46,469 bases of DNA from Blastocatellia bacterium (lineage in GTDB: Bacteria > Acidobacteriota > Blastocatellia > HR10 > J050), in assembly GCA_025054955.1 (NCBI GenBank), contig JANWZE010000060.1, positions 1 to 46,469 of the forward strand, read 5' to 3'. Below, one piece after another: positions 1 through 15,520 of the stretch. The position numbers were made by a program, and so were the translations under genes. The first letter of the stretch is position 1. The number at the start of each line of letters is the position of its first letter. The notes under the pieces are model-generated. The model ran no database searches and was not told the origin of the DNA. It saw nothing but the letters and a program-made list of their open reading frames with translations.

Positions 1-253
1 GGGGAGAACCTCACGCTCTGTAAAACCGCCGTAGGAGTAATCGGACCATCCCCCCGCGCGTGGGGAGAACGTCTAATGAAATCGTTCGACAAGCCATCTG
101 TCTGGACCATCCCCACGCGCGTGGGGAGAACAAGTCCACGACTGCTGCTGTGAAAATCCAGCTTGGACCATCCCCACGCGCGTGGGGAGAACGCTGTGCT
201 GCTATTAAACAGTTCGCGCTGATGCGGACCATCCCCACGCGCGTGGGGAGAAC
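1..253 (-). CRISPR. Type I-E CRISPR array (partial, leader-proximal end)
   Basis: Four full 28-bp repeats lie at 43-70, 104-131, 165-192 and 226-253, plus the last 9 bases of a fifth at 1-9. Start-to-start distance is exactly 61 bp, so spacers are 33 bp (10-42, 71-103, 132-164, 193-225), all different. Read on the minus strand the repeat begins GTTCT, has the palindromic stem CCCCACGCGCGTGGGG and ends ATGGTCC. This is the orientation known for E. coli and Thermus type I-E repeats, so the array is transcribed in the same direction as the cas genes and its first repeat is at 226-253. The repeat at 43-70 has one substitution in the stem. The array continues beyond the left edge, so total length is unknown. 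Spacer targets cannot be judged here. Confidence 0.97.
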
Positions 254-291: not shown

Positions 292-615
292 TTATTGGGG
301 ACCCGTCTCACTATTGTTTGCATCTGTTGATTCAGGCTCTTCCCATTTTTCAGCGACCAACCACAGTCCGGAGACCTCGATACCCTTGCGGTCGGTCGGC
401 CCGCTTGTTTCGATTTTGTAGCCCTGGCAATTTGGAAAACTGCTGATGATGAGCAAGCCAATGCCAGCAGCGTTGCGCTTGATGTATTCGATTGTCTTCT
501 GGTGTGTGCGTCGGTTCAGCGTGCCGACAAAGACGTTCGGGCGCGGCTCGATGAACCAGCGTTTGAGCATCCCACGAATAGCGTCGGGCGTGTCGTTAGC
601 GACGATGACGGTCAT
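292..615 (-). CDS. cas2: CRISPR-associated endoribonuclease Cas2e
   Basis: 107 residues of the type I-E Cas2 family. In family terms it is the structural partner that bridges Cas1 dimers in the Cas1-Cas2 spacer integrase. The N-terminus (MTVIVAND) and the core RGMLKRWFIE and NVFVGTL match the compact ferredoxin-like Cas2e fold. A C-terminal tail after the core (about residues 85-107) is polar and probably disordered. The start codon overlaps the cas1 stop (ATGA, 612-615), so translation is probably coupled to cas1. It is the last cas gene before the array. Confidence 0.95.
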   Translation of the reverse strand: MTVIVANDTPDAIRGMLKRWFIEPRPNVFVGTLNRRTHQKTIEYIKRNAAGIGLLIISSFPNCQGYKIETSGPTDRKGIEVSGLWLVAEKWEEPESTDANNSETGPQ

Positions 616-1442
616 CGGATGAGCTCCTCTAGGTCTTTAGGCATTCGCGCAAGCAGTTTCTCCTGCTCGATTCGTTCCTTGAGCAGCACGCGCACCAGTT
701 CACCCTTGTCGTCAGGTTGTTGACTGATGGCCTGGAACGCTGCGGGGAACGAGGTGATCTCCTTGTATAGATCAGCCACATCGTAGATGAATGGCAGTGT
801 ACCTGCGTCGTGGATGAAGCCCAGCGACGGCAGGTAGCCGAGTGAACAACAGACCGCTGCGCAGATGGCATAGAGGCTCGCATTGGCTGCCGAGAGCGCG
901 CGGTTGATATTATCGGCGAGGTTCCAGTTGGACTTGTCGTACTGACGTCCTTTCCAGGTGACGCCATACTGTTGTCCGAGTTCCGCGTACTTAGCGCGCA
1001 CACGCAATCCCTCCATGCCCCGGAGTTCCTTGATGCTATATTGGGCGACGTCAACGGTAGGGAAGCGGAGCGCGAACATCCGGCGGGCAATCTCGGCGCG
1101 TTTCTTTTTGTCGGCCCAGAGTGCGGCGTGCTGGCGCGGCTTGGTGTTGTCGTGGTTGGGCGTGATGCCGAAGGCATAAAACCGCATGCCGTCTTCACCG
1201 ATCCAGCAGACGGGCGTGTTGGAATCGGCGCAGGCTTTCATCGCCGCGTGCGTAACCGTCGTGCCGGGACCGAGCAGCACGGCGGAGATAGTGGCTACGG
1301 GCAAGCGATAGACCATGTCGACGCCGATCCACTTGATGCTTGAGTCGTCTACTTCGAGCCGCCCGTGCTCCAGGTAGATCGGCGTCCACCTGTCTTTGGC
1401 CGGTGTCAGTGCTTCTAGTGGTGGTTTCTCGAAGATAGGCAT
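612..1442 (-). CDS. cas1: CRISPR-associated endonuclease/integrase Cas1e
   Basis: 276 residues, the usual length for type I-E Cas1, the metal-dependent integrase that inserts spacers with Cas2. The expected catalytic residues are visible: Glu144 in RGMEG, His211 in GFIHDAG, and Asp221/Asp224 in YDVADLYK. An N-terminal beta domain precedes the helical catalytic domain. The ATG at 1442 was chosen because a good Shine-Dalgarno (CAGGAG) lies just upstream and homology starts at MPIFEKP; the frame stays open further upstream through a CRISPR-like repeat. It overlaps cas2 by 4 nt and is separated from cas5e by about 80 nt containing that repeat. Confidence 0.96.
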   Translation of the reverse strand: MPIFEKPPLEALTPAKDRWTPIYLEHGRLEVDDSSIKWIGVDMVYRLPVATISAVLLGPGTTVTHAAMKACADSNTPVCWIGEDGMRFYAFGITPNHDNTKPRQHAALWADKKKRAEIARRMFALRFPTVDVAQYSIKELRGMEGLRVRAKYAELGQQYGVTWKGRQYDKSNWNLADNINRALSAANASLYAICAAVCCSLGYLPSLGFIHDAGTLPFIYDVADLYKEITSFPAAFQAISQQPDDKGELVRVLLKERIEQEKLLARMPKDLEELIR

Positions 1443-1474: not shown

Positions 1475-1502
1475 CAACCGCCCCCACGCGTGTGGGGAGA
1501 AC
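1475..1502 (-). repeat. Solitary CRISPR-like repeat between cas5e and cas1
   Basis: A 28-bp copy of the array repeat with about five substitutions. On the minus strand it starts GTTCTCCCCAC and keeps the stem arms CCCCAC/GTGGGG around ACGC, while the 3' handle differs from the array (GCGGTTG in place of ATGGTCC). It is transcribed in the same sense as the array repeats and lies 33 nt upstream of the cas1 start codon. There is no second copy at 61-bp distance. Confidence 0.85.
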
Positions 1503-1520: not shown

Positions 1521-2252
1521 TCATTCGGGTTCGCCTCCAGGTTCGGCGGTGCGGCCAACTTCCACGTTCACGCGCCGGAGAGCGAACTGGCGGCCTTCAG
1601 ACGACGAATCTTCTCGACCAAACGATACGGGCACGTCGTTGTAGGAATCCGTGCCTGCGGCGAAACTGGGCGCGTCGGTGACGCGGGTGAACGCTTCCAG
1701 CGGCGTGTCACCGATCAACGTCTTCCGCGCTTCGGCCAACGTCTCGTGTAGTCCGCGAAAGAGTGGTTCGGCAGGGATGCAGCTTTTGCGCCCGAACCAG
1801 ACGCCCCAGGTCGGATTTTCAAGCGCGGCGGCCACGTGTTCAAGCAGCGCGCGATCGCCTGACAGGATGACGCCGAACCGAGCATCAAGTAGGTACTGAC
1901 GGCGAGTCACAACCGGATCGTCGTTTAGTGTGCCGCTGGCGCGCCGAGTCCCTAACACAGTGTGGAAGTCCTCCAATCGGCGCACCGGCCAATCCTCTAC
2001 CTTGCCCTTCCAACGGCTGGCTTGCTGGCGTGGGATGGCGATGCTAGTCATGCTTAACTCAGCTAACTTCGGCAACAGCTCCCTTTCTTTCGCCGAACCC
2101 TTGGCTACTCCCATCGCAGCGCAGATTAGGCCGATGACGCCGCTCTTGGTCGGATGCAATCCGGTAGTGCGGCGCTGGAAGCGGCTCTGAAAGCCCCACG
2201 ACTGAAGCGGAGCATCAAGTAGCAATGCGAGATAACCAATTTCAACTGACAT
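1521..2252 (-). CDS. cas5e: Type I-E Cascade subunit Cas5e (CasD)
   Basis: 243 residues. Cas5e caps the 5' handle of the crRNA in the Cascade complex. Diagnostic N-terminal features are the beta strand YLALLLDAPLQSWG, then the TGLHPTKSGVIGLICAAMG segment typical of Cas5 proteins; a basic VTRRQYLLDARF segment lies mid-protein. The start at 2252 gives the canonical N-terminus and overlaps the end of cas7e by 11 nt, supporting coupled translation. A longer frame upstream exists but lies within cas7e. Confidence 0.95.
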   Translation of the reverse strand: MSVEIGYLALLLDAPLQSWGFQSRFQRRTTGLHPTKSGVIGLICAAMGVAKGSAKERELLPKLAELSMTSIAIPRQQASRWKGKVEDWPVRRLEDFHTVLGTRRASGTLNDDPVVTRRQYLLDARFGVILSGDRALLEHVAAALENPTWGVWFGRKSCIPAEPLFRGLHETLAEARKTLIGDTPLEAFTRVTDAPSFAAGTDSYNDVPVSFGREDSSSEGRQFALRRVNVEVGRTAEPGGEPE

Positions 2253-3468
2253 GGGCGATGATCTCCTTGCAGAAGTCGTCGAGTGATTTGTCGGGGATAG
2301 CAACTTCCAACACTGGCTGGATACCCCAGGTCCTTTTCAACTGTTCGTGATGCTCCTTGAGCGCAGTGATCGAAGCGTCCATCAGACCATTCTTGGAGAA
2401 GACCGGTTTCTCGAAGGCGTTGACCAATTGCAGCGGCTGGCCCTTGTCCTTGACCAAACCCAGCACGTAACAGGGCAGCGTGTGCGCGTTCATCGAGTTC
2501 TTGCGCGCGCCCGGCACCGCCAGAATCGAGGCGCGCACGAACGTTTCCACGACCGACTTGAATTCGTCGGCGGACAGGGCCGCCAGATGCTGTTTGAGCA
2601 GATCAAGGTTCAGTCCCACGTAGCGGTAGTATGTGGCCGATGTGAATTCCAACGTGCCGGTCATACCCGCGCCGGCTTCCTCAGTGGGCTGTAGGTCATC
2701 CACTGCGGAGAAGAAATCAATGTCGTTGTCCGCCTTGTGCGTGGATAGTGCATGACTGAACAGCCCCGCGCCTTCCACCGTCAGCGAATGATCGCTGGCC
2801 ACCATCCGCCCGAAGATGGCAATGTCAGCCGCGTCCTTCACCAGACCTTTCACCGAGCTTTCCTTAAATGTCTTCCGGATTGGTGTCTTCAGCACTTTGG
2901 CCACGAGCTTTGTGAATTGCTTTGCCGTGAGCGGCTTCTCTTTTTCCTTTGTCTTCTTGGTTGAGGTCTCCTTCTCAATCGTCTCTTCCGCGTCACCTTC
3001 GTCGGTTTCTTCAGCCTTCTCCAGTTCTTCCGGACTGATGCGCTCAACTGCTTGGCAGAGCGTGTTCCGGTCATCTTCGGACAATTCCTTCAACAAATCA
3101 GCAAGGCAATTGAACTCGTCCGGCGATAGGAACATCAGGGTCTTGACCTTTCTCTCATCTTTGGGATCGAGCTTGCCAAGATAATGAGCCGCGCATTTGG
3201 CCAAAGCTTCGGCTACTTTTGGGTCTAACTTGTGGCGTTCTACCAGCACTTCTGTGATTTTCTCAGTGAACAGACGGCTGCGCCGCCCTGCGTACAAGGT
3301 GGGCTGTAATTCGGCAGCGGCCTGCCGAATCGCCCGTTTCAGGCACTGGCTGGAGATGCGCGCCCGCGTGACCCCGCCGAACGTGGCGGACTTGGGTGCG
3401 CCTACATCGTCGCGATTCAAACACGAGACGGGGAATGATTGAAGGATGTGCAATTCGATCAGTTTCAT
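2242..3468 (-). CDS. cas7e: Type I-E Cascade backbone subunit Cas7e (CasC/Cse4)
   Basis: 408 residues. Cas7e forms the helical backbone of Cascade that coats the crRNA spacer. The N-terminus MKLIELHILQSFPVSCLNRD, the segment RARISSQCLKRAIRQ and the later TSATYYRYVGLNLDLL are characteristic. A strong Shine-Dalgarno (AAGGAGG) precedes the ATG at 3468. Residues about 145-182 form a highly charged, low-complexity insert rich in Glu, Lys and Thr, making the protein longer than the approximately 360 residues usual in E. coli. It lies 30 nt downstream of cas6e and overlaps cas5e by 11 nt. Confidence 0.96.
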   Translation of the reverse strand: MKLIELHILQSFPVSCLNRDDVGAPKSATFGGVTRARISSQCLKRAIRQAAAELQPTLYAGRRSRLFTEKITEVLVERHKLDPKVAEALAKCAAHYLGKLDPKDERKVKTLMFLSPDEFNCLADLLKELSEDDRNTLCQAVERISPEELEKAEETDEGDAEETIEKETSTKKTKEKEKPLTAKQFTKLVAKVLKTPIRKTFKESSVKGLVKDAADIAIFGRMVASDHSLTVEGAGLFSHALSTHKADNDIDFFSAVDDLQPTEEAGAGMTGTLEFTSATYYRYVGLNLDLLKQHLAALSADEFKSVVETFVRASILAVPGARKNSMNAHTLPCYVLGLVKDKGQPLQLVNAFEKPVFSKNGLMDASITALKEHHEQLKRTWGIQPVLEVAIPDKSLDDFCKEIIAHVS

Positions 3469-3498: not shown

Positions 3499-4125
3499 TC
3501 AACTAATTGGCGCGATTACCAGCAAGCCGAAGCCGAACGCTCTGGCTGGGCCGATGCCGCGCGTGAATGCGTCGTAAAATTTCGTCGGATCGGTGACGGT
3601 CAGCACACCTTGAAACTCCACAGCGGTGTGCAGGCCGCGCATGCCCTTCTTCTGAAAGTATTCGCGTCCGCGCGGGACGATGCGCAAAGAGCCTTCGTCT
3701 ACGACAAAACCGCCCTGCTCTGCTTTGCGCTTGATCCACGCGATCAACTCCTCTCGGCGAGTGAGTGGGACGCGGCGACTGTTTTTCTTAAAGGTCCCAT
3801 CCGGGTTTTGCACAGCGACTTTTTTGGTCGCGTTGGCGCATAATTGAAAGCGATAGCGCCGGCGGGTGAAGTAGCTCGGCGGAATTTCTTTCGGCCCGCG
3901 CCAGCCCTCGGGCGGACACCACTCAGGCCGTGTGGGCGCAACCGGCGAGACGATGAGCAACTGGAAGCCGCTTTCTTTTTGGTCGAGCCGCGTCAGGAAA
4001 TCGCGCGCGTGGCCGTCTCGTCCGGGAAAACATTCCCAGACACGCTGATGCCAATCGTAAACATCGTGAATGTGCAGCCGGGCAGCGGTCGCGTAATCGA
4101 GCGTGACTTGGGTCAGGTAGCTCAT
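3499..4125 (-). CDS. cas6e: CRISPR RNA endonuclease Cas6e (CasE/Cse3)
   Basis: 208 residues. Cas6e cleaves the pre-crRNA at the 3' base of each repeat hairpin and stays bound in Cascade. Tyr23 and His26 (in DVYDWHQRVW) stand at the positions of the catalytic pair known from Thermus Cse3, and the C-terminus has the glycine-rich GIGPARAFGFGLL signature. The start at 4125 overlaps the cse2 stop (ATGA, 4122-4125). Its position between cse2 and cas7e is unusual, since in the common type I-E order it follows cas5e. It is the enzyme expected to act on the CRISPR-like hairpins found inside this same transcript. Confidence 0.95.
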   Translation of the reverse strand: MSYLTQVTLDYATAARLHIHDVYDWHQRVWECFPGRDGHARDFLTRLDQKESGFQLLIVSPVAPTRPEWCPPEGWRGPKEIPPSYFTRRRYRFQLCANATKKVAVQNPDGTFKKNSRRVPLTRREELIAWIKRKAEQGGFVVDEGSLRIVPRGREYFQKKGMRGLHTAVEFQGVLTVTDPTKFYDAFTRGIGPARAFGFGLLVIAPIS

Positions 4126-4628
4126 GGCACGGCCTCCGTGATCGCGGGCGCACCTGTTTCTTCCGATGCCGGCGCACCCCAAAATTCGGCAGCCCAACGC
4201 ACTTTCACAGCGTCGCTCCAGTACCAGAGATCAACAAACAGTTGCTCATAATTCACCGGGACACCCTTCGACTTCGCAACGAACACGACCGGGCGGATGT
4301 GGTCGCAGATCTCCTCGCGGTCGCAGGCCAACAGCCGGCGGAACCGTCCCTCAAACGTGTTATGTTCAGCGCCAAGTTGTCGGCAGGTCGTGCCGAGATT
4401 GCCGGCATTGGTTTCTTCGGGATGATGCGCGAACAACCCGGCAACGGTCTCGTACCGGGCGTTTCCAATCCCGCCGAATCGAGCCAGCAACGGCCAGGCG
4501 CGGTGACGCTGCGCTGGATTGAGCGCGCGACGCAGATCAGCCATCGCACCCCGGTCATTCTTCAGTTGGCGTAGATACTTCAAAAACTGCGCGGCCAGTT
4601 CTTGTGGATCGGTTTGTTTGGTGTTCAT
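4122..4628 (-). CDS. cse2: Type I-E Cascade small subunit Cse2 (CasB)
   Basis: 168 residues, all-helical. The Cse2 dimer lines the belly of Cascade and stabilises the R-loop. The family pattern is visible in the segments RGAMADLRRALNP, AGNLGTTCRQLG and FRRLLACDREE. GGAG at 10 nt before the ATG serves as Shine-Dalgarno and sits immediately after a degenerate CRISPR repeat (4641-4669), so cleavage at that repeat would leave this gene with a crRNA-like 5' end. The gene overlaps cas6e by 4 nt and is separated from cse1 by 170 nt. Confidence 0.94.
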   Translation of the reverse strand: MNTKQTDPQELAAQFLKYLRQLKNDRGAMADLRRALNPAQRHRAWPLLARFGGIGNARYETVAGLFAHHPEETNAGNLGTTCRQLGAEHNTFEGRFRRLLACDREEICDHIRPVVFVAKSKGVPVNYEQLFVDLWYWSDAVKVRWAAEFWGAPASEETGAPAITEAVP

Positions 4629-4640
4629 GATTCGGTCTCC

Positions 4641-4785
4641 GGACTATCCTCACGCGCGTGGAAAAGAACAACATAGTAGCTTTGCAAAATCCTATTTCGT
4701 GCCGCCATCCCCACGCAGAGAACAAAGGCGGCAGACAGGAATGGCTGCCCCACATCCACCATCCCTCACACGCGTGAGGGAGAAC
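4641..4785 (-). CRISPR. Degenerate mini-CRISPR embedded between cse1 and cse2
   Basis: Three divergent copies of the array repeat fill this 170-nt gap, in the same orientation as the array. Copy at 4756-4785 has the stem CCCTCAC/GTGAGGG, in which both arms changed together relative to the array stem, so the hairpin is kept. Copy at 4701-4723 is truncated and lacks part of one arm. Copy at 4641-4669 keeps CACGCGCGTG but has a weakened base of the stem. The intervals (4670-4700, 31 bp; 4724-4755, 32 bp) are close to the spacer length of the array. The last copy abuts the Shine-Dalgarno of cse2. Part of the second interval also resembles the short palindromes found elsewhere in the window. Confidence 0.8.
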
Positions 4786-4798
4786 AAAGGTCTTGATC

Positions 4799-6295
4799 TT
4801 AAGTTTCATCATTCAGTCTCTTGCGCCCTAGCGCGTAGGCGCGAATTTGCCGGGCCGTTTCGTGCGGGCAGGCACGGTCGAAAGCGGCCAGCGCCGCGCG
4901 CCAGACGGCTTGTCCCCAGGCGGTTTTGTGCCAAGCCTTTTCCAATCCCAACACCTTCGGATTGGCTGCGATGTCCAACAGATCGTTGACGCGGCGCTCA
5001 ACCTCCGTCCAGAATTGAAATGCAGCTTTGCTTTGCACGCGCTGGCGTTGCTCGCGCATCTCTGCCCGGTCAAGATTGTCGCCAAGTTCCTTGTGATAGA
5101 CGCTGACAGCGCGGCGGAGCCGAACCTCGATAGCTTCGGCATGCTTCACACCGGCCTCATAGGTGCGCTGGCCAGGGTCGGTCAGCATTGCTGCGGGCAC
5201 GTGGAAGACGGACTCCAACGTATCAACCAGCTTGGCCTGGTCGGCGACTAACCCGCCCACCCACAGATCAAAGGCCTGGTTGTCGGGTATGTTCTGAAGC
5301 GCGACCGGTCCGCCCAGGCTAGCCTGGCTGAGAGTTTTGACGGTGAGCGAATGCAGCTCTCGCCAGGGGGCCCGATCGAGCGAGGCGCGCAACAGAACAC
5401 GTTCGGACTGACCCTTGGTTTGCCGGATTACAACGGTCGCCGTCGGTTCTCGCCACTGGGGATACGGCGCAAATTTCAGGCCGTTGGCAAGCACCATAGT
5501 GTCGCTGTGCTTGTTCAGAAGCACCGCACGCGACAATGGCACGAGCCGTCCCAAATACGTGTCCGTAGCATTACGAACTGAGTCGCCCTTCGCAGGATCG
5601 TCGGGCATCTGTTCCCACAGCGGGCGGCCCCACCGTCCTTCGCCGTAAAGTTGCACTACTTGCGAACGGGACAACAGATTTATGTGGATTGTCTCGAGCA
5701 AATTCCTACCGCGCACGAGAGCGTGGAGCATGCTGCCAGCGATGCACGGCGCGTGGTCGCTTGAACCCTTTCCTGTTGTTTCCTTGTCGTTCCATAACGC
5801 CACGCCGATGCGTCCTCCGGGGGAAAAGCACTGGAAGGTCAGAAGATTCAGTGCCAGTTGCGCCGTTGAGAGTTCTCGCTTCGAGCCGCCTGCGTTGTCA
5901 AACAGCGTCGGGTTGTTGCCTGTCGCTAATGCCAGGTCGAGTTTGCTCACCGGATTGCCCTCGTCATCGTCCTTGAGCTTCTTCAGGTTGCCAATCTGCA
6001 AGAATCGCTGCCCACTCCCGAAAAGCTCGAATGCGTGTTGCCACTGCTCCAGGTATTTGAGCGCTCTTGGGGTGATTCGCGATTGGCACGTCTTCCAGTC
6101 GTCATAATCAGCCGGGCCGTCCAGCGCCGCTTGGGTCACGCAAATCAGCAGGCGCATCAAGGCAATGCGCTCGTGCGGGCGCACAGCGAGATCGCGGATC
6201 TCGTACCCGCGTGAGAACGCCTCGGTGAGGCTTACCATATCAGGTTTGCCATTCTCCAGGACAATCGGTATCCACGGCTTAGTCGTAAGATTCAT
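4799..6295 (-). CDS. cse1: Type I-E Cascade large subunit Cse1 (CasA/Cas8e)
   Basis: 498 residues, the usual length. Cse1 recognises the PAM and recruits Cas3. The opening MNLTTKPWIPIVLENG and the motif FSPGGRIGVALWN are typical of the family. It overlaps the end of cas3 by 17 nt, so the two are probably translationally coupled. Its 3' end is followed by a 170-nt gap with degenerate CRISPR repeats. No frameshift or internal stop is seen. Confidence 0.95.
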   Translation of the reverse strand: MNLTTKPWIPIVLENGKPDMVSLTEAFSRGYEIRDLAVRPHERIALMRLLICVTQAALDGPADYDDWKTCQSRITPRALKYLEQWQHAFELFGSGQRFLQIGNLKKLKDDDEGNPVSKLDLALATGNNPTLFDNAGGSKRELSTAQLALNLLTFQCFSPGGRIGVALWNDKETTGKGSSDHAPCIAGSMLHALVRGRNLLETIHINLLSRSQVVQLYGEGRWGRPLWEQMPDDPAKGDSVRNATDTYLGRLVPLSRAVLLNKHSDTMVLANGLKFAPYPQWREPTATVVIRQTKGQSERVLLRASLDRAPWRELHSLTVKTLSQASLGGPVALQNIPDNQAFDLWVGGLVADQAKLVDTLESVFHVPAAMLTDPGQRTYEAGVKHAEAIEVRLRRAVSVYHKELGDNLDRAEMREQRQRVQSKAAFQFWTEVERRVNDLLDIAANPKVLGLEKAWHKTAWGQAVWRAALAAFDRACPHETARQIRAYALGRKRLNDET

Positions 6296-8864
6296 CCCAG
6301 TCCTCCTCAGTCAGTTGCGGGACGAACTCGCGCTCGATCATGATACCCTGATCGGCATGATAGGAAAGCCCTGTCTGTCGTTCGTCGTCAGGCCACCGAA
6401 TGCTGCCGTCACAGAGCAATCGCCCTACGGCGGTAGGTTGTGAAACGTGATTGGTCAGCCAGCCAGGCCGCTTCATCAGGGCAGTCTTGACAACGAACCA
6501 CGGCACGCGGACCAGATTGCGGTGTATGGCTTTTGCCGTCTCGAAGTTCCAGTCGCGGTCATGCGCCGTGACCGTTGTGCCATCAAGTAGGCAAAGACGC
6601 GCTGAGTGCAAGTCGAGTGTTGTAATCTCCGTCGCTAAGAGTAGTTGGGCCATCGGATAGGTACTGTAGCGAGTTTGGACGTCTTCTTCGTCCGAGAGTG
6701 CCGGGTTGAACCAAATGTTTGTGGCCGACAACGCGAAACGTTCGAGCTTATGTTTGTGTTTTTCGAGTTGCTCGCGCAGTTCCCGCCAGCCTTGAGGTTC
6801 ATCAGCGGATGGCTCGGCATACGTTGCTTCCAGGATCGCGCGAATATCGGTGGGCAGCGTGATGGTGTTGCGGGCTCGCCACTGTTGGAGAGAACGCAAG
6901 AGCACGTAGGGCGCATACACTTTGGCGCCCTTGCCCAGCGCAGCGCGAAGCTCTTTCTCTGTTGCACTCTCCAATTGGTCGTTGTTCATCGGTACGTCGC
7001 GAATCCAAATCTCCGGCCGCCCAGGCCGGTTTGGCCGGTCGTGTCGCCAGAGCCGTCCAAGACGCTGGAGCAGCATATCGGTTGGAGCGAGATCGGTAAT
7101 GAGTAGATCAGCGTCTATGTCCACGCTTTGCTCAGCCACCTGTGTGGCGACCAGCACGCAACCGGCAGGCCGTTTGGTTGAGTTTTTGCCCAAAGCCTCC
7201 ATCCACTTCGCCTCGAGTTCTTCGCGGCGGAAGAGTGGGAACCGCGCGTGCAGGAGCCCAATTGGCGGTCCGCCCTCGCAATTGGTGGCCATCAGGCGGC
7301 GGTAGGTTTCTTGCGCCTCATCCACGGTGTTGCGAATCCACAAGACGCATTGGCCCTGCCGGGCGCGATCCAGGCAATCAGCAAGCATCGAATCCGGGTC
7401 ATCGAATCTCACAGAGACAATTTTTGCCGGTGGCGGTTTACACGGGACTTGGATCGGTGAGGTTCCGGCAGCGGAAAGCAGTGGGTAGGAATCGCTCAAC
7501 GGTTGGTCTTGGTCCACCTGAAGCAGTTGGCGGCGGCGTGCCTTGGTGAGCGTGGCCGACAGCACGATGACCGTGCAATATAGTTCCCGCAGCCGCTTCA
7601 CCAGCGCGTCAATCAGCGTGCCGGTGTAAAGGTCGTAAGAGTGGACTTCGTCGAGGATCACGACTTTACCGGCCAGCCCGAATTGGCGCACGAAGAAATG
7701 CTTTGCCGCCACGATGCCGAGTAATGCTTGGTCAATCGTGCCGACGCCAAAGGGCGCCAGCAGCGCGCGCTTCGCTGATGCAAACCAAGACCGGCCTGCC
7801 TGTACGTGTTTCTGCGCCTCATCATCCGCTTCGCTCGTTGGGCGGAGCTCCAGCGGCTGTTCTGCTTGTACTAACCAGGAGGTGCTGTGCGCCAGACGCA
7901 CATGTGGTGTATCGGCGCAAATGCGTTGTACAAAGGGTTCCACGCGCAGGTAAATCCGGTTGCTGGTGACTTGCGTGGGTAGTGCAAAGTAGATACCGCT
8001 CGCTTTCCCCGACGCCAGGAGTTGATACGCCGCCGCCAACGCCGCCTCGGTCTTTCCGCAGCCCATCGGTCCTTCGATCACATACACGCCCGGCTCGCGA
8101 ATGGTCTTGATTGCTGCGTTCTGCAAACTGTTGGGTTTATACGATGGGAACAGGTCCTCGAACTCCAGATCATTTCCACGCAGGTGAGGGACGCGCCAGC
8201 CAATCGCTGCCAATGCGGCCTGTGCTCGGCGTCTTCGCTCGCATGGGTCTCCATTCGCCTCCTGCGGGAAATGGGTTTCATTCGAACCAATCCAATCGGC
8301 CACTGTAATCAGTCCGGCCAAGCACCACAGTGCCGCCTCATCAGCCGGCTTAATGGGGAGGTCGCCGAAGGTGCAGATGAGCTCTGCTGCAAGCCGTTGC
8401 CGCTCTTCTTCCCACGGCTCGCAGACCTGAACGCGCTCGCCTTTGATCTGCCCATGGTGCGCGCCGACGACGGCCGCCAAGCGGTGAAGGTGAGAGCTGC
8501 TGAGCATCTGTTGCACGGTAAACTGGCTGATCTTTGCATGGTCTGTCTCTCGCACATGCCAGCATTCTTGCAACGCACGCTCTGCCAAACCGTGTTGCAC
8601 CAACCACGCTTTGCATTTCTGCTGAAATCCTGGCGACACCTTGCCGATGTCATGCAGAGCAGCGAGTGTGGCAGCGCCGGCCTGGTGTAGCGTTTTCACT
8701 TGCGCTGGTAGTAATTCCAGCAACGCTTCCGCAACGCAGCCAACATTCAGGCAGTGATCACGGACGTTAATACCGGGACGGCCATCCGCAGTCGTTTTCG
8801 CCCAGCATTGCTCATGGTTGATGTTAACGCTATCGGTTATCTTTGGTTTGTGAGGCGCCGGCAT
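6279..8864 (-). CDS. cas3: CRISPR-associated nuclease-helicase Cas3
   Basis: 861 residues: N-terminal HD nuclease plus superfamily 2 helicase, the enzyme that degrades target DNA after Cascade binding. The HD domain has His71-Asp72 in HDIGK and further His in VGAHHGQIKG. Helicase motifs follow in order: Walker A GPMGCGKT (265-272), DEVH (405-408), SATLT (436-440), and later EQSVDID and QRLGRLWRH. All key residues look intact. It is the first gene of the cas operon; GGAG lies just before the ATG at 8864. No clear promoter hexamers could be assigned in the 146 bp before tRNA-Asp. Confidence 0.96.
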   Translation of the reverse strand: MPAPHKPKITDSVNINHEQCWAKTTADGRPGINVRDHCLNVGCVAEALLELLPAQVKTLHQAGAATLAALHDIGKVSPGFQQKCKAWLVQHGLAERALQECWHVRETDHAKISQFTVQQMLSSSHLHRLAAVVGAHHGQIKGERVQVCEPWEEERQRLAAELICTFGDLPIKPADEAALWCLAGLITVADWIGSNETHFPQEANGDPCERRRRAQAALAAIGWRVPHLRGNDLEFEDLFPSYKPNSLQNAAIKTIREPGVYVIEGPMGCGKTEAALAAAYQLLASGKASGIYFALPTQVTSNRIYLRVEPFVQRICADTPHVRLAHSTSWLVQAEQPLELRPTSEADDEAQKHVQAGRSWFASAKRALLAPFGVGTIDQALLGIVAAKHFFVRQFGLAGKVVILDEVHSYDLYTGTLIDALVKRLRELYCTVIVLSATLTKARRRQLLQVDQDQPLSDSYPLLSAAGTSPIQVPCKPPPAKIVSVRFDDPDSMLADCLDRARQGQCVLWIRNTVDEAQETYRRLMATNCEGGPPIGLLHARFPLFRREELEAKWMEALGKNSTKRPAGCVLVATQVAEQSVDIDADLLITDLAPTDMLLQRLGRLWRHDRPNRPGRPEIWIRDVPMNNDQLESATEKELRAALGKGAKVYAPYVLLRSLQQWRARNTITLPTDIRAILEATYAEPSADEPQGWRELREQLEKHKHKLERFALSATNIWFNPALSDEEDVQTRYSTYPMAQLLLATEITTLDLHSARLCLLDGTTVTAHDRDWNFETAKAIHRNLVRVPWFVVKTALMKRPGWLTNHVSQPTAVGRLLCDGSIRWPDDERQTGLSYHADQGIMIEREFVPQLTEEDWDESYD

Positions 8865-9010
8865 AAGCTCTCCAATGGTGTATGCCAGACACGGCCAATT
8901 CGCTCAAAACTGTGGACAAAGGGTGAATGGCGAGCTGGGAAGTCAGATCACCCGTGTCTCACATGCTGAAAACAGATGAGCTATTTGATGGTACTTGCCG
9001 TTTTTCGTGG

Positions 9011-9084
<74 letters not shown>

Positions 9085-9166
9085 ACCGATTCGTCACCAC
9101 ACGCGATGCGCTGTCGCTGCTTGCTCTCATCCAGAAAACTCAGCCGTCCCTATGCGAAACAGATGG

Positions 9167-9239
9167 TGGGCGCAGAAGGACTCGAACCTTCGACTTCTCG
9201 CGTGTAAGGCGAGCGTTCTAGCCGCTGAACTATGCGCCC
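9167..9239 (-). tRNA. tRNA-Val (TAC)
   Basis: A 73-nt cloverleaf on the minus strand with acceptor arms GGGCGCA/TGCGCCC and discriminator A. The anticodon loop CTTACAC gives anticodon TAC, and the T loop TTCGAGT is canonical. It lies 82 bp upstream of tRNA-Asp and is probably co-transcribed with it. Confidence 0.97.
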
Positions 9240-9318: not shown

Positions 9319-9565
9319 CAAGTGACAGAGATAGTCGTGATCGTCTCAATTGCGGGGCTTGAAAAGAAGAATCTGACTCGTTGCCAACAAGTGACGGAGA
9401 CAGTCGTGGTTGTTTCGATTGCGGGTCTGAGGGAAACAGAGATACTCGTGATCGTCTCAATTGTAGGGCTTGAAAAGAAGAATCTGGCTCGTTGCCGTCA
9501 CGTGACAGAAATAGTCGTGATCGTTTCAATCAGGGGGTTTGAAAAAAGAAGAAGAAATTTGGCTT
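9319..9565. repeat. Higher-order tandem repeat upstream of the TPR gene
   Basis: Four copies of a unit whose core reads AGTCGTGATCGTYTCAAT begin at 9333, 9402, 9444 and 9513. The spacings are 69, 42 and 69 bp, so a 111-bp block of two units has been duplicated. Copies 1 and 3 share the following segment GAAAAGAAGAATCTG almost exactly. The fourth copy contains the inverted repeat TTTCAA...TTTGAAA. The intervals are themselves conserved, so this is not an ordinary CRISPR. The block ends about 25 bp before the next gene. Confidence 0.85.
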
Positions 9566-11512: not shown

Positions 11513-11620
11513 GCTGGGAGAAGCTTGCTGCAAGCCTCTCCCCTTCGATGAATCAATCACTGTGAGAGTCAAAAAGTGACTGGCTGGGAGAAGCTTGTTG
11601 CAAGCCTCTCCCCTTCGATG
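11513..11620. repeat. Direct repeat of a 38-bp palindromic element
   Basis: Two nearly identical copies lie at 11513-11550 and 11583-11620, differing at one base in the loop. Each contains the inverted repeat GGAGAAGCTTG/CAAGCCTCTCC around a 3-bp centre. They sit downstream of the TonB receptor gene and upstream of the antitoxin gene. They look like REP-type elements and could also work as terminators. Confidence 0.75.
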
Positions 11621-11659: not shown

Positions 11660-14600
11660 CTAGAAGTTCACCCGAATCCGGAACTGAATCATGCGTGGCC
11701 CCGGATCCTGGTTACCCAGATCATTGAAGAATTCAGTCGTGCGACCGAAATCAGTGGAGTCAATGCTGTGCGTAATGCCCGCCGCGGTCGGGCCGCCGAT
11801 CAAGAAGTTCTGGTAGTTAAACGCATTGAAAAATTCGGTCCAGAACTCAACATTGATCCGCTCGTTCACGCGCGTCTTCTTGATGATTGAGAGGTCAGGT
11901 TTAACGAAGCGCGGGCCCGTCAGGTAGATGTACGAGCCAAACTCACCCGGCGTCGTCGGCACATCCAGGATGGCTCGGTTCGAGCGTCCATCTGCCCCAA
12001 TCAGGTTCGATGGGACGAAGAAGATGTCGCGGGAGCCAGGATCCTTGCGCACCTTGATCAGCTTTCGCAGCTCCCGGATGGTCATGCCTCTCAAGATCAC
12101 ACCAGAATCAGACTGATTCACCGTCCAGCGACCACTGGTGAGCCTGAAGACGCGGCCCGACTGGATACGCACGACGCCGAGAAAATCCCAGCCCTCGATC
12201 AGCTTGTTGAAGGCAGCGTTCTCGGTGCTCCACTTGCGGCCCGGCCCGAACGGCAGCTCATACACCCAGTGCGTGACGAATGTATGCCGCAGGTCCCACG
12301 GTGATGGCCCTTTGTTCATCTTGGTGTTGCGCAGCGTATGGAAGCTCGAGAAGGAGCTGGCAGCATCGGCATATAGATCGGTGAGCGATTTGCTGAAGCT
12401 ATAATTCGCGTTCAACATCAATCCCTGGGCCATCCGCCGTCGCAATTCAAGCTGCAGGCCGTGATAGGTGGAGAACGACCCGTTGGTCAACATACCTACC
12501 GTGTTGTTGGCTCCGTCCGGGTTCACCTGGAAGAAGTTCGGCGGCAAGGGCCCGGCTGCATCGAAGCCTCGCGCTGCACATGCTGCCAGGCGGTTACCTG
12601 TCATCCGGCAAAGATACGTGGCCAGCCGAGCCAGCTCGTTAGCCAACCTTCCTGCTTGTCCCTGATCGAGCCAGGTAATGAAGGTACCACTGGCGAAGCC
12701 GGCTGCTGGAGACAGAGCCGCTTGTGAGCCTCGGGCGCCAAATGCGGCCTCGAAGATTGGCAGCGGCACTTGGCCAGGCAGACCCTGATTGGAGAAGTTC
12801 GCGCCACGGCCTTGCGCCCGACTGATGGCCAGGTTGTTCTGGGCGTTCCTGAATTCTTGCAAGAATCCGTTCTCGAAGATGTTCACCTCGTTGATATTGA
12901 ACGAGCGCCAGAGCTTCGTCCCGCGATTGCCCACATAGCGAGCTTCGACCACCATATCCTTGGTCAGCTCGCGCTGCCAACCAAACGACCACGACTGCAC
13001 GTAAGGCGTCCGGATGTTCGGGTCAAAAGCCAAGAAGCTGACGCCGCCGAATGTGAACGCCGATTGGGGCGTCGGGAAGCTGAAGCTGGTGGGGAACTGC
13101 CGGAACGCCGGCAGCCGGTCCCGCAACGATAATCCGCCCGCCGTGAAGTCCGATCCGCCCGTGAGTGTGATGGACTGTGTCAGACCGGGACTGCCTCCGG
13201 CAAAGTCGGCGAAGTGCGCCAAACCTTCGCGCGTATACGCGATCGAATAACCACCTCGCAATACCGATTGGCCTTGCCCACCAAACAAGAACCTCAGGAC
13301 GGGATTCTCCACCCGTGGATTCCAGGCCAGGCCGAAGCTCGGCGCCGGGTTGACGAAGTCGCGTTTGTAGACGTTCTTCGAGCGCAAATAAATCTGCGGA
13401 TTCGTGACGCCCGCTAGGACGCCTGGCCGGAACAGATTGCCCACACCCGAGACGCCCCACAAATCCTGGAACGTAGGACTGGTGAAGATGTCATTCTGGT
13501 TGTACACCGCTCCCTGGAATTGCCAGCGCAGTCCGTAGTTGAGCGTCAAGCTCGGCGTGGCGCGCCAGGAGTCCGTGAAGTATAGCCCGAACTCGTTCTG
13601 CCGCGCACGCCGCACAAGCGGTGCCAGGTTGACATATTGCTTGGAGTTCTCGTCCACATTGCGGGTGCCGGAAATCGAAGAAATTCGCCCAGTCAGCAAC
13701 GCATAAAGCGCCCGAGCATTAGCCAGGTCTGTTGTGCTGATGTTCGGCAAGTTTGTGGCACTCAACGGTGTGGCCACTGGATCACCGCCGATCACCCCGA
13801 ATGACACCGTAGGAACACCGGCACCGAGGAATGAATTATCGAGCCAGCTCACAATGGTGGCCGCTCCGCCAAAGTTCCAGGTGTGCTTGCCGCGCACCAC
13901 GCTCAGGTTATCCTGGATGCTATAGGCCGGCGTGTTCCGGCTTGAGGGGAGCGACCGGGAAGTACCAGCCAGTCCGGGCCGCGCATGCAGGCTCTGCAGG
14001 TCCAGTGGCCAGAGGATGCGCAAGCCTGCCGGGTAGATCTCCGCACCTGACTCAGGGAAGAATTGTACCGGAGCCCCCTGCAAGCCAAAGCGGAATTCAT
14101 TAGCAATACTGGGCGTCACTGCCCATTGTAAAGCCGTCGTTACCGAGAAGCGGTTTGAGTATTGACCAGCTGGCTTACCGAGGCCTGGGAAGGTCGGGTC
14201 CATGTTATTAAGTGTGTCGGGGAAGGACGAGAAGTAGTTGTAATGCCATGTGCCATACCACCTTACCTTGTCGGTGATATGATAATCCATCCGCAACGTT
14301 GGGAAGCGCCGCAACTGATTGCTAGGGGCCTCAAACCGGTAACGCTGGCGGAATAAATCAAAGGCGCTGATTGCCCCGCGCCCTCGTGCGCCGTTGATTT
14401 CCCCTAGCATGCTGGCCACAGTTGGGTCAATAGTGCTGGGGAAGCCCGCTGCGCCAGCAATCTGGAGCAAGTTGGCCGTGCGCTCGGCCCCATCGGTCCC
14501 GCGATAGCGGAAGATACCGGTAGCGGCTTCAGGCGTCAGGATCAAGTTCTCCCGTGGACGTGACTCTGGCAAACGAAATTCTTCATAGTTGAAGAAGAAG

Positions 14601-15520
14601 AAGATCTTGTCCTTCCAGATCGGTCCGCCGACATTGCCGCCAAATACGTTGAGCAGGTTTCGGGGTCGGCGCAGGCCGCGTGCGTTGTTGAACCAGGTGT
14701 TGGCATTGAGCGCGTCATTGCGATGATCCCAGAACAGAGTGCCGCGCCAGTCATTTGTACCCCGACGGGTGACGAACTGAATCTGAACCGCTCCTTCACC
14801 GGCGGCATCGGCGCCGGCTGTTGCCGTCGTTACCGTGACCTCTTCAACGGCATCTAGTCGCGGGCGGATGAGCGTGAACATGCCGCCGCCAAAGGCGCTT
14901 TTGAGCAGGTTATCCTGGACATTGACGCCGTCCATCGAGATGTTGATCGCGCCTTTGGGTAAGCCAAGGAACGTGCTTTGACGAGCCGTGCCGCCCTGTT
15001 GAGCGCCCGGCATCAACATCACGAAGTCGAGCGTATCACGGTTATTCAACGGTAAGCCCCGAATGATGTCACCGCGCACGGTCGTCTCAATCGTGGTTGA
15101 GCTTCGCTCTAAAATCGCAGCCCCCTCAGTGACTTCGACAATTTCGGTCACTTCTCCCACTTCGAGTGTGACGGTCACATTAGTCGTGCGTGCAGCATCC
15201 ACTTTCAGACCTGAGTAGACGCCGGTGCGAAAGCCCGGCATGCTCACCGTGATTTTGTAAGTGCCCGCCTGGAGGTTCAAAAAGACGAACCCACCATCGG
15301 GATCCGATTGCCTTGTCTGTGTAGCACCGGTAGCTTCATCTTCTAATTTCACGTTAGCACCGGCAATAACAGCTCCTGCCGGGTCCTGCACGGTGCCGAC
15401 GATCTGGCCAACAGGACGAACCTGAGCCCAAGCGACCGGCGCCCACACCAACATGATCAAGACCGCAACGAGTTTGAATGCGGTCCCGGGTTTAAACACC
15501 ACTGATGTGAGTTGCCTCAT
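11660..15520 (-). CDS. TonB-dependent receptor, Oar-like, with carboxypeptidase-regulatory domain
   Basis: 1286 residues from the ATG at 15520, chosen for its strong Shine-Dalgarno (AAAGGAG) and the signal peptide that follows (about residues 1-33, ending VAWAQ); the frame is open further upstream but without a comparable start. Next comes a carboxypeptidase-regulatory-like domain (GQIVGTVQDPAGAVIAGANV), a plug domain (RGLPLNNRDTLDFVMLMPGA), and a large beta-barrel ending RIRVNF with C-terminal Phe. This architecture is typical of Acidobacteriota and Myxococcota Oar-like outer-membrane proteins. The substrate is unknown; no transporter or glycoside hydrolase lies beside it. Confidence 0.92.
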   Translation of the reverse strand: MRQLTSVVFKPGTAFKLVAVLIMLVWAPVAWAQVRPVGQIVGTVQDPAGAVIAGANVKLEDEATGATQTRQSDPDGGFVFLNLQAGTYKITVSMPGFRTGVYSGLKVDAARTTNVTVTLEVGEVTEIVEVTEGAAILERSSTTIETTVRGDIIRGLPLNNRDTLDFVMLMPGAQQGGTARQSTFLGLPKGAINISMDGVNVQDNLLKSAFGGGMFTLIRPRLDAVEEVTVTTATAGADAAGEGAVQIQFVTRRGTNDWRGTLFWDHRNDALNANTWFNNARGLRRPRNLLNVFGGNVGGPIWKDKIFFFFNYEEFRLPESRPRENLILTPEAATGIFRYRGTDGAERTANLLQIAGAAGFPSTIDPTVASMLGEINGARGRGAISAFDLFRQRYRFEAPSNQLRRFPTLRMDYHITDKVRWYGTWHYNYFSSFPDTLNNMDPTFPGLGKPAGQYSNRFSVTTALQWAVTPSIANEFRFGLQGAPVQFFPESGAEIYPAGLRILWPLDLQSLHARPGLAGTSRSLPSSRNTPAYSIQDNLSVVRGKHTWNFGGAATIVSWLDNSFLGAGVPTVSFGVIGGDPVATPLSATNLPNISTTDLANARALYALLTGRISSISGTRNVDENSKQYVNLAPLVRRARQNEFGLYFTDSWRATPSLTLNYGLRWQFQGAVYNQNDIFTSPTFQDLWGVSGVGNLFRPGVLAGVTNPQIYLRSKNVYKRDFVNPAPSFGLAWNPRVENPVLRFLFGGQGQSVLRGGYSIAYTREGLAHFADFAGGSPGLTQSITLTGGSDFTAGGLSLRDRLPAFRQFPTSFSFPTPQSAFTFGGVSFLAFDPNIRTPYVQSWSFGWQRELTKDMVVEARYVGNRGTKLWRSFNINEVNIFENGFLQEFRNAQNNLAISRAQGRGANFSNQGLPGQVPLPIFEAAFGARGSQAALSPAAGFASGTFITWLDQGQAGRLANELARLATYLCRMTGNRLAACAARGFDAAGPLPPNFFQVNPDGANNTVGMLTNGSFSTYHGLQLELRRRMAQGLMLNANYSFSKSLTDLYADAASSFSSFHTLRNTKMNKGPSPWDLRHTFVTHWVYELPFGPGRKWSTENAAFNKLIEGWDFLGVVRIQSGRVFRLTSGRWTVNQSDSGVILRGMTIRELRKLIKVRKDPGSRDIFFVPSNLIGADGRSNRAILDVPTTPGEFGSYIYLTGPRFVKPDLSIIKKTRVNERINVEFWTEFFNAFNYQNFLIGGPTAAGITHSIDSTDFGRTTEFFNDLGNQDPGPRMIQFRIRVNF

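Follow-up and report, generated by a model that had tools for sequence, protein, structure and literature searches.

The type I-E cas operon at the start of the window (the whole 46,469-nt stretch of DNA that was analysed) probably received a small ectopic array between cse1 and cse2 in a lineage-specific insertion that is now in decay. Three divergent copies of the array repeat, oriented as in the array, occupy the gap between these genes together with two spacers. The absence of such copies from relatives, together with the broken hairpins of two of the three, argues for a decaying insertion rather than a regulator. Array repeats would have inserted into the cas operon itself and split an overlap of cse1 and cse2, which bears on the origin of ectopic repeats, from which CreA-like regulators can arise.

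The cas operon and its mini-array

Family models identify a complete type I-E operon in the first 9 kb of the window on the minus strand. The gene order is cas3, cse1, cse2, cas6e, cas7, cas5, cas1, and cas2, followed by an array that leaves the contig. The features are as follows, with all genes assigned by family models.

6279–8864, minus strand: cas3
4799–6295, minus strand: cse1, with a C-terminal tail shorter than in relatives
4756–4785, minus strand: ectopic repeat A, whose 8-bp stem is intact and has gained one T:A pair across its two arms
4724–4755, minus strand: spacer S1, 32 nt
4702–4723, minus strand: ectopic repeat B, left stem arm deleted
4670–4701, minus strand: spacer S2, 32 nt
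4641–4669, minus strand: ectopic repeat C, stem damaged, end adjoining the cse2 Shine-Dalgarno
4122–4628, minus strand: cse2
3499–4125, minus strand: cas6e
2242–3468, minus strand: cas7
1521–2252, minus strand: cas5
1475–1502, minus strand: solo ectopic repeat lying between cas5 and cas1, with an intact stem and an altered 3′ handle
612–1442, minus strand: cas1
292–615, minus strand: cas2
1–253, minus strand: end of the main array nearest cas2, with a period of 61 nt, continuing past the contig end

The repeat of the main array is GTTCTCCCCACGCGCGTGGGGATGGTCC, which folds with an energy of −12.8 kcal/mol; the terminal repeats at the trailer end of this array are also degenerate and fold weakly. 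On the minus strand, copies A, B, and C read GTTCTCCCTCACGCGTGTGAGGGATGGTGG, GTTCTCTGCGTGGGGATGGCGG, and GTTCTTTTCCACGCGCGTGAGGATAGTCC, respectively. The spacings from GTTCT to GTTCT along A, B, and C are 62 and 54 nt, compared to an array period of 61, and the second spacing would also be 62 once the 8 nt apparently lost from B are added back. The mini-array has the constant period and unique spacers of a type I-E array, and it lacks the near-identical repeats with intact Cas6e hairpins of one. Against the array repeat, A and C each score 36/56 and B scores 22/56. When the gap was dinucleotide-shuffled 5000 times, scores rose no higher than 28 and never reached the level of A or C (0/5000), and shuffling gave P = 0.0002 for copy B within its own stretch. 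A chance origin of the repeat copies is excluded, and the scores, shuffles, and spacing confirm the original prediction of three divergent sense copies at near-array spacing in a gap of the operon. In the window, a covariance model trained on 21 array repeats, taken from this locus and related ones, detected C (E = 4.9e-6), the solo copy (E = 5.6e-5), and A (E = 5.7e-4), and missed copy B.

Genes for tRNA-Asp and tRNA-Val (window 9008–9239) lie immediately upstream of cas3 on the same strand, and the operon may be located at a tRNA insertion site. A match to Cse1 was absent from both of the same-family genomes searched (n = 2). At 9325–9530 of the window there is a pair of 95-nt direct repeats, 86% identical, inside a short ORF without a known domain. 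At 11513–11620, a palindromic sequence is present as two 38-nt copies 70 nt apart and occurs nowhere else in the genome.

Probable insertion footprint and comparison with relatives

Eighty relatives were retrieved by a query with a Cse1 alignment, an earlier query with Cse1 alone having matched nothing. Among ten that were compared and have a Cse1 identity of at least 55%, cse1 and cse2 overlap as ATGA in seven, and the remaining three have gaps of −1, 2, and 9 bp; the window has a gap of 170 bp. The conserved AYALG motif of Cse1 and the ATG of cse2 are 197 nt apart in the window versus 47–77 nt in seven close relatives, an excess of 120–150 nt that fits an array insertion of 145 bp. This insertion of about 145 bp took the place of the usual Cse1 tail. 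Alignment of the gap in related genomes, which had been proposed as a check on the hairpins, revealed no conservation of hairpins or repeats: none of the 76 relatives with both genes (0/76), in which the median match-to-match gap is 54 bp, has a repeat-like site between cse1 and cse2. Repeat-like sites scoring at least 30 between cas genes were also absent from the other operons scanned, with the exception of one from a Parachlamydiales genome (L062, below).

The insertion is surrounded by a 16-nt imperfect direct repeat, GAGAC[T/C]GAAT[G/C]ATGAA (P about 7e-4 by shuffling).

4805–4820, minus strand: upstream copy, GAGACTGAATGATGAA, like the cse1-end/cse2-start junction of relatives
4624–4639, minus strand: downstream copy, GAGACCGAATCATGAA, including the cse2 start codon

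The junction in relatives that the flanking repeat resembles is GAGGAGACTGAAGCATGAG. This duplication is short and imperfect, and a ribosome-binding site and start codon common to both copies could account for part of it.

A fragment of the genome's own array, in the form repeat-spacer-repeat-spacer-repeat and about 145 bp long, probably inserted in this lineage at a once-overlapping cse1/cse2 junction, where it would have replaced the usual Cse1 tail, separated cse1 from cse2, and probably duplicated part of the junction. A likely route would be off-target integration by Cas1-Cas2 or a repair event. In the decay that would have followed, B lost its stem and the stem of C was damaged, which would leave A as the sole intact hairpin of the mini-array.

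The operons of relatives present several other features. A 419-bp gap without a repeat separates the cse1 and cse2 matches of L030 (4649–5067), and two array-like repeats lie on the same strand about 500 bp upstream of cas3 in L101 (6870–6960). Extra ORFs are frequent at the cas6e-cas7 junction (L031, L035, L038, L039, L041–L045, and L050); in L035 (12690–13409) this gap encodes a DUF2281 protein and a PIN-domain protein with the look of a VapBC-type toxin-antitoxin pair.

Ectopic copies elsewhere in the genome

All of the in-operon copies lie within the two largest intergenic gaps of the operon. The solo copy in the cas5-cas1 gap showed no duplication on its flanks. A fifth copy with an intact stem is located outside the operon, at C133:12199-12228, between sucB-like and pckG-like genes. 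Bracketed by perfect 32-bp direct repeats (L132 3164-3270 = G000:C133:12163-12269), it presents a clean insertion footprint. Type I-E integration is expected to produce a target duplication of 28 bp, a length that the 32-bp duplication exceeds. The 24-nt core of the 32-bp repeat has no other genomic site within 3 mismatches, and a dispersed 32-bp element was rejected as there are just the two flanking copies within 3 mismatches.

Across the whole genome, the hits of the covariance model outside arrays are C, the solo copy, A, and the C133 copy, with other weak hits at chance level. A dispersed genomic family of hairpins was rejected since non-array copies found by the model are confined to the cas operon and C133 (B is below its reach). 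No convincing ectopic repeats were found in the genomes of seven relatives, for which only the best candidates were scored. The weak model hits there (L167–L169) had poor handles or stems, lay in long-ORF regions without flanking duplications, and were taken as chance. The solo and C133 copies suggest that more than one off-array insertion has occurred in this genome. Both the cse1-cse2 and C133 sites look like insertions with target duplication, for which we infer the responsible enzyme or repair process.

State of the hairpins

Copy A folds into an 8-bp stem with an energy of −14.0 kcal/mol, and the solo copy folds at −11.8 kcal/mol. With its own stem destroyed, B adopts a different fold (−4.4 kcal/mol), and the damaged stem of C reaches −3.8 kcal/mol. 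The paired change described earlier for both stem arms of 4756–4785 is present as claimed, and A is the only one of A, B, and C to carry such a change. Its paired T:A insertion is a single case that quasipalindrome (hairpin-templated) mutation can explain, since this process can create a paired stem change in the absence of selection. In the predicted fold of the entire gap, A pairs with C rather than forming its own hairpin. No repeat variant with an A-type stem was found in IMG/VR.

Hairpin retention was assessed by introducing as many random changes into the array repeat as each copy carries and comparing the resulting folds with those observed. The P values were 0.06 for A, 0.41 for B, 0.93 for C, 0.11 for the solo copy, and 0.03 for the C133 copy. 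Combined, they came to 0.28 for A to C; adding the solo copy of the operon gave 0.16, and adding the C133 copy as well gave 0.04. From the combined value for A to C and that for A alone, the stem is retained in A and not across the whole mini-array. The original reading of the hairpin at 4756–4785 as either kept under selection or recently diverged gains no functional support from the mini-array, as A, B, and C together retain no more hairpin than random mutation would leave (P = 0.28). The evidence against an inserted array in decay includes the symmetrical complementary change in A, the intact stems of the solo and C133 copies, and the P value of 0.04 for the five copies, as well as the short, imperfect duplication at cse1-cse2, its lack at the solo copy, and the excess length of the one at C133.

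The operon of L062, a Parachlamydiales MAG (PLXF01000112.1), provides a contrast. It contains at least 18 diverged repeats with a period of about 61 nt, at 6816–7269 upstream of cas3, 12760–13339 between cas6e and cas7, and 15212–15300 after cas5. The 18 copies extracted with a filter that required at least 5 of 6 stem pairs have a mean pairwise identity of 66%. Since the copies were selected for pairing, the proportion of paired stem cells (98.4%), the covariation score, which was above all 500 shuffles, and the combined P value of the random-change test (1.3e-6) are biased towards structure. The 13 cells changed on both sides are still informative despite this filter. No Cas1e was found in this MAG. 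L062 has the pattern expected of selection on in-operon hairpins, and the window shows no such pattern. How selection acts on crRNA hairpins once repeat homogenisation stops can be examined better in L062, as a natural test.

Alternative explanations

With Cas6e cleavage of the polycistronic cas mRNA at both A and the solo copy, the messages for cse1, cse2, and cas1-cas2 might be separated and the subunit ratios tuned. The copies lie in sense orientation within the operon transcript and in its two largest gaps, the folds of A and the solo copy equal or nearly equal that of the array repeat in stability, and the operon, cas6e included, is intact by family models. Such self-processing is nonetheless unlikely: it has no counterpart in relatives, where no hairpin is conserved (0/76), the copy beside the cse2 start is damaged, B is stemless, the gap copies show no excess retention of hairpins, and A is predicted to pair with C. 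Copy C does adjoin the cse2 Shine-Dalgarno as originally predicted; the accompanying proposal, that cleavage there gives the cse2 mRNA a crRNA-like 5′ end, gains no support, the stem being damaged (−3.8 kcal/mol). Cutting by Cas6e may still occur at A or the solo copy, and any such cutting of cas mRNA would probably be incidental. It is quite improbable that cutting at these two copies, acquired by repeat insertion into the gaps, provides feedback control of the Cascade subunit ratio and of the adaptation genes.

The spacers have also been considered as sources of guides. It is very doubtful that the gap retains a small array whose crRNAs, cut from the cas transcript, are still functional, and whose old repeats are under stem selection as apparently in L062. 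While L062 shows that type I-E arrays can occupy gaps between cas genes with strongly covarying stems, two of the three stems in the window are broken, so that neither S1 nor S2 lies between two intact hairpins. Nor do the spacers match a known target: in IMG/VR there is no exact match to a 20-mer of S1 or a 19-mer of S2, and phage records gave nothing meaningful for S1 and only chance-level matches for S2. A CreR/CreA-like regulator, in which a crRNA-like guide made from S1 or S2 would bring Cascade to a promoter on the chromosome, for instance the one that drives the cas operon, is highly improbable. Degenerate repeats around a spacer beside cas genes are the reported anatomy of CreA (PMC9458426), but an 8-nt seed search (position 6 free) of the leader and the region upstream of cas3 found no match to either spacer, and near the cas3 promoter the suggested CreA/CreR-type RNA would need one. 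Neither spacer has an 11-mer in common with the rest of the window, and the 26-nt core of S1 has no second site in its own genome at up to 3 mismatches. Since B, the repeat after S1, has no stem, Cas6e would not produce a 3′ end after S1. Decay of a simple array insertion, originally offered as the null hypothesis, fits the anatomy, the absence from relatives, and the broken hairpins.

Comparison with known systems

The mini-array has the repeat sequence, 61-nt period, 32-nt spacers, and sense of transcription in common with the type I-E array of the same locus. It differs in having two spacers only, a location between cse1 and cse2, strongly diverged repeats, and no apparent leader. With CreA/CreR (PMC9458426, PMC12737573) it shares degenerate repeats outside the array and beside cas genes; in contrast to these systems, no seed-matched target was found, the second repeat has no hairpin, and there is no conservation in relatives.

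The solo copies at 1475–1502 and C133 may be compared with solitary repeat units, or Racr RNA anti-CRISPRs, which are carried by viruses and other mobile elements (PMC10651486). Both are solo repeats; however, the copies described here belong to the chromosome, and the cas operon itself contains one. A function of A and the solo copy is possible, yet unsupported. In the type I-Ea systems of C. diphtheriae, CRISPR loci occur between cas3 and cse1 (PMC9944170), and an array within the cas operon is common to these systems and the window. In C. diphtheriae this is a described locus configuration, whereas the window contains a two-spacer remnant between cse1 and cse2.
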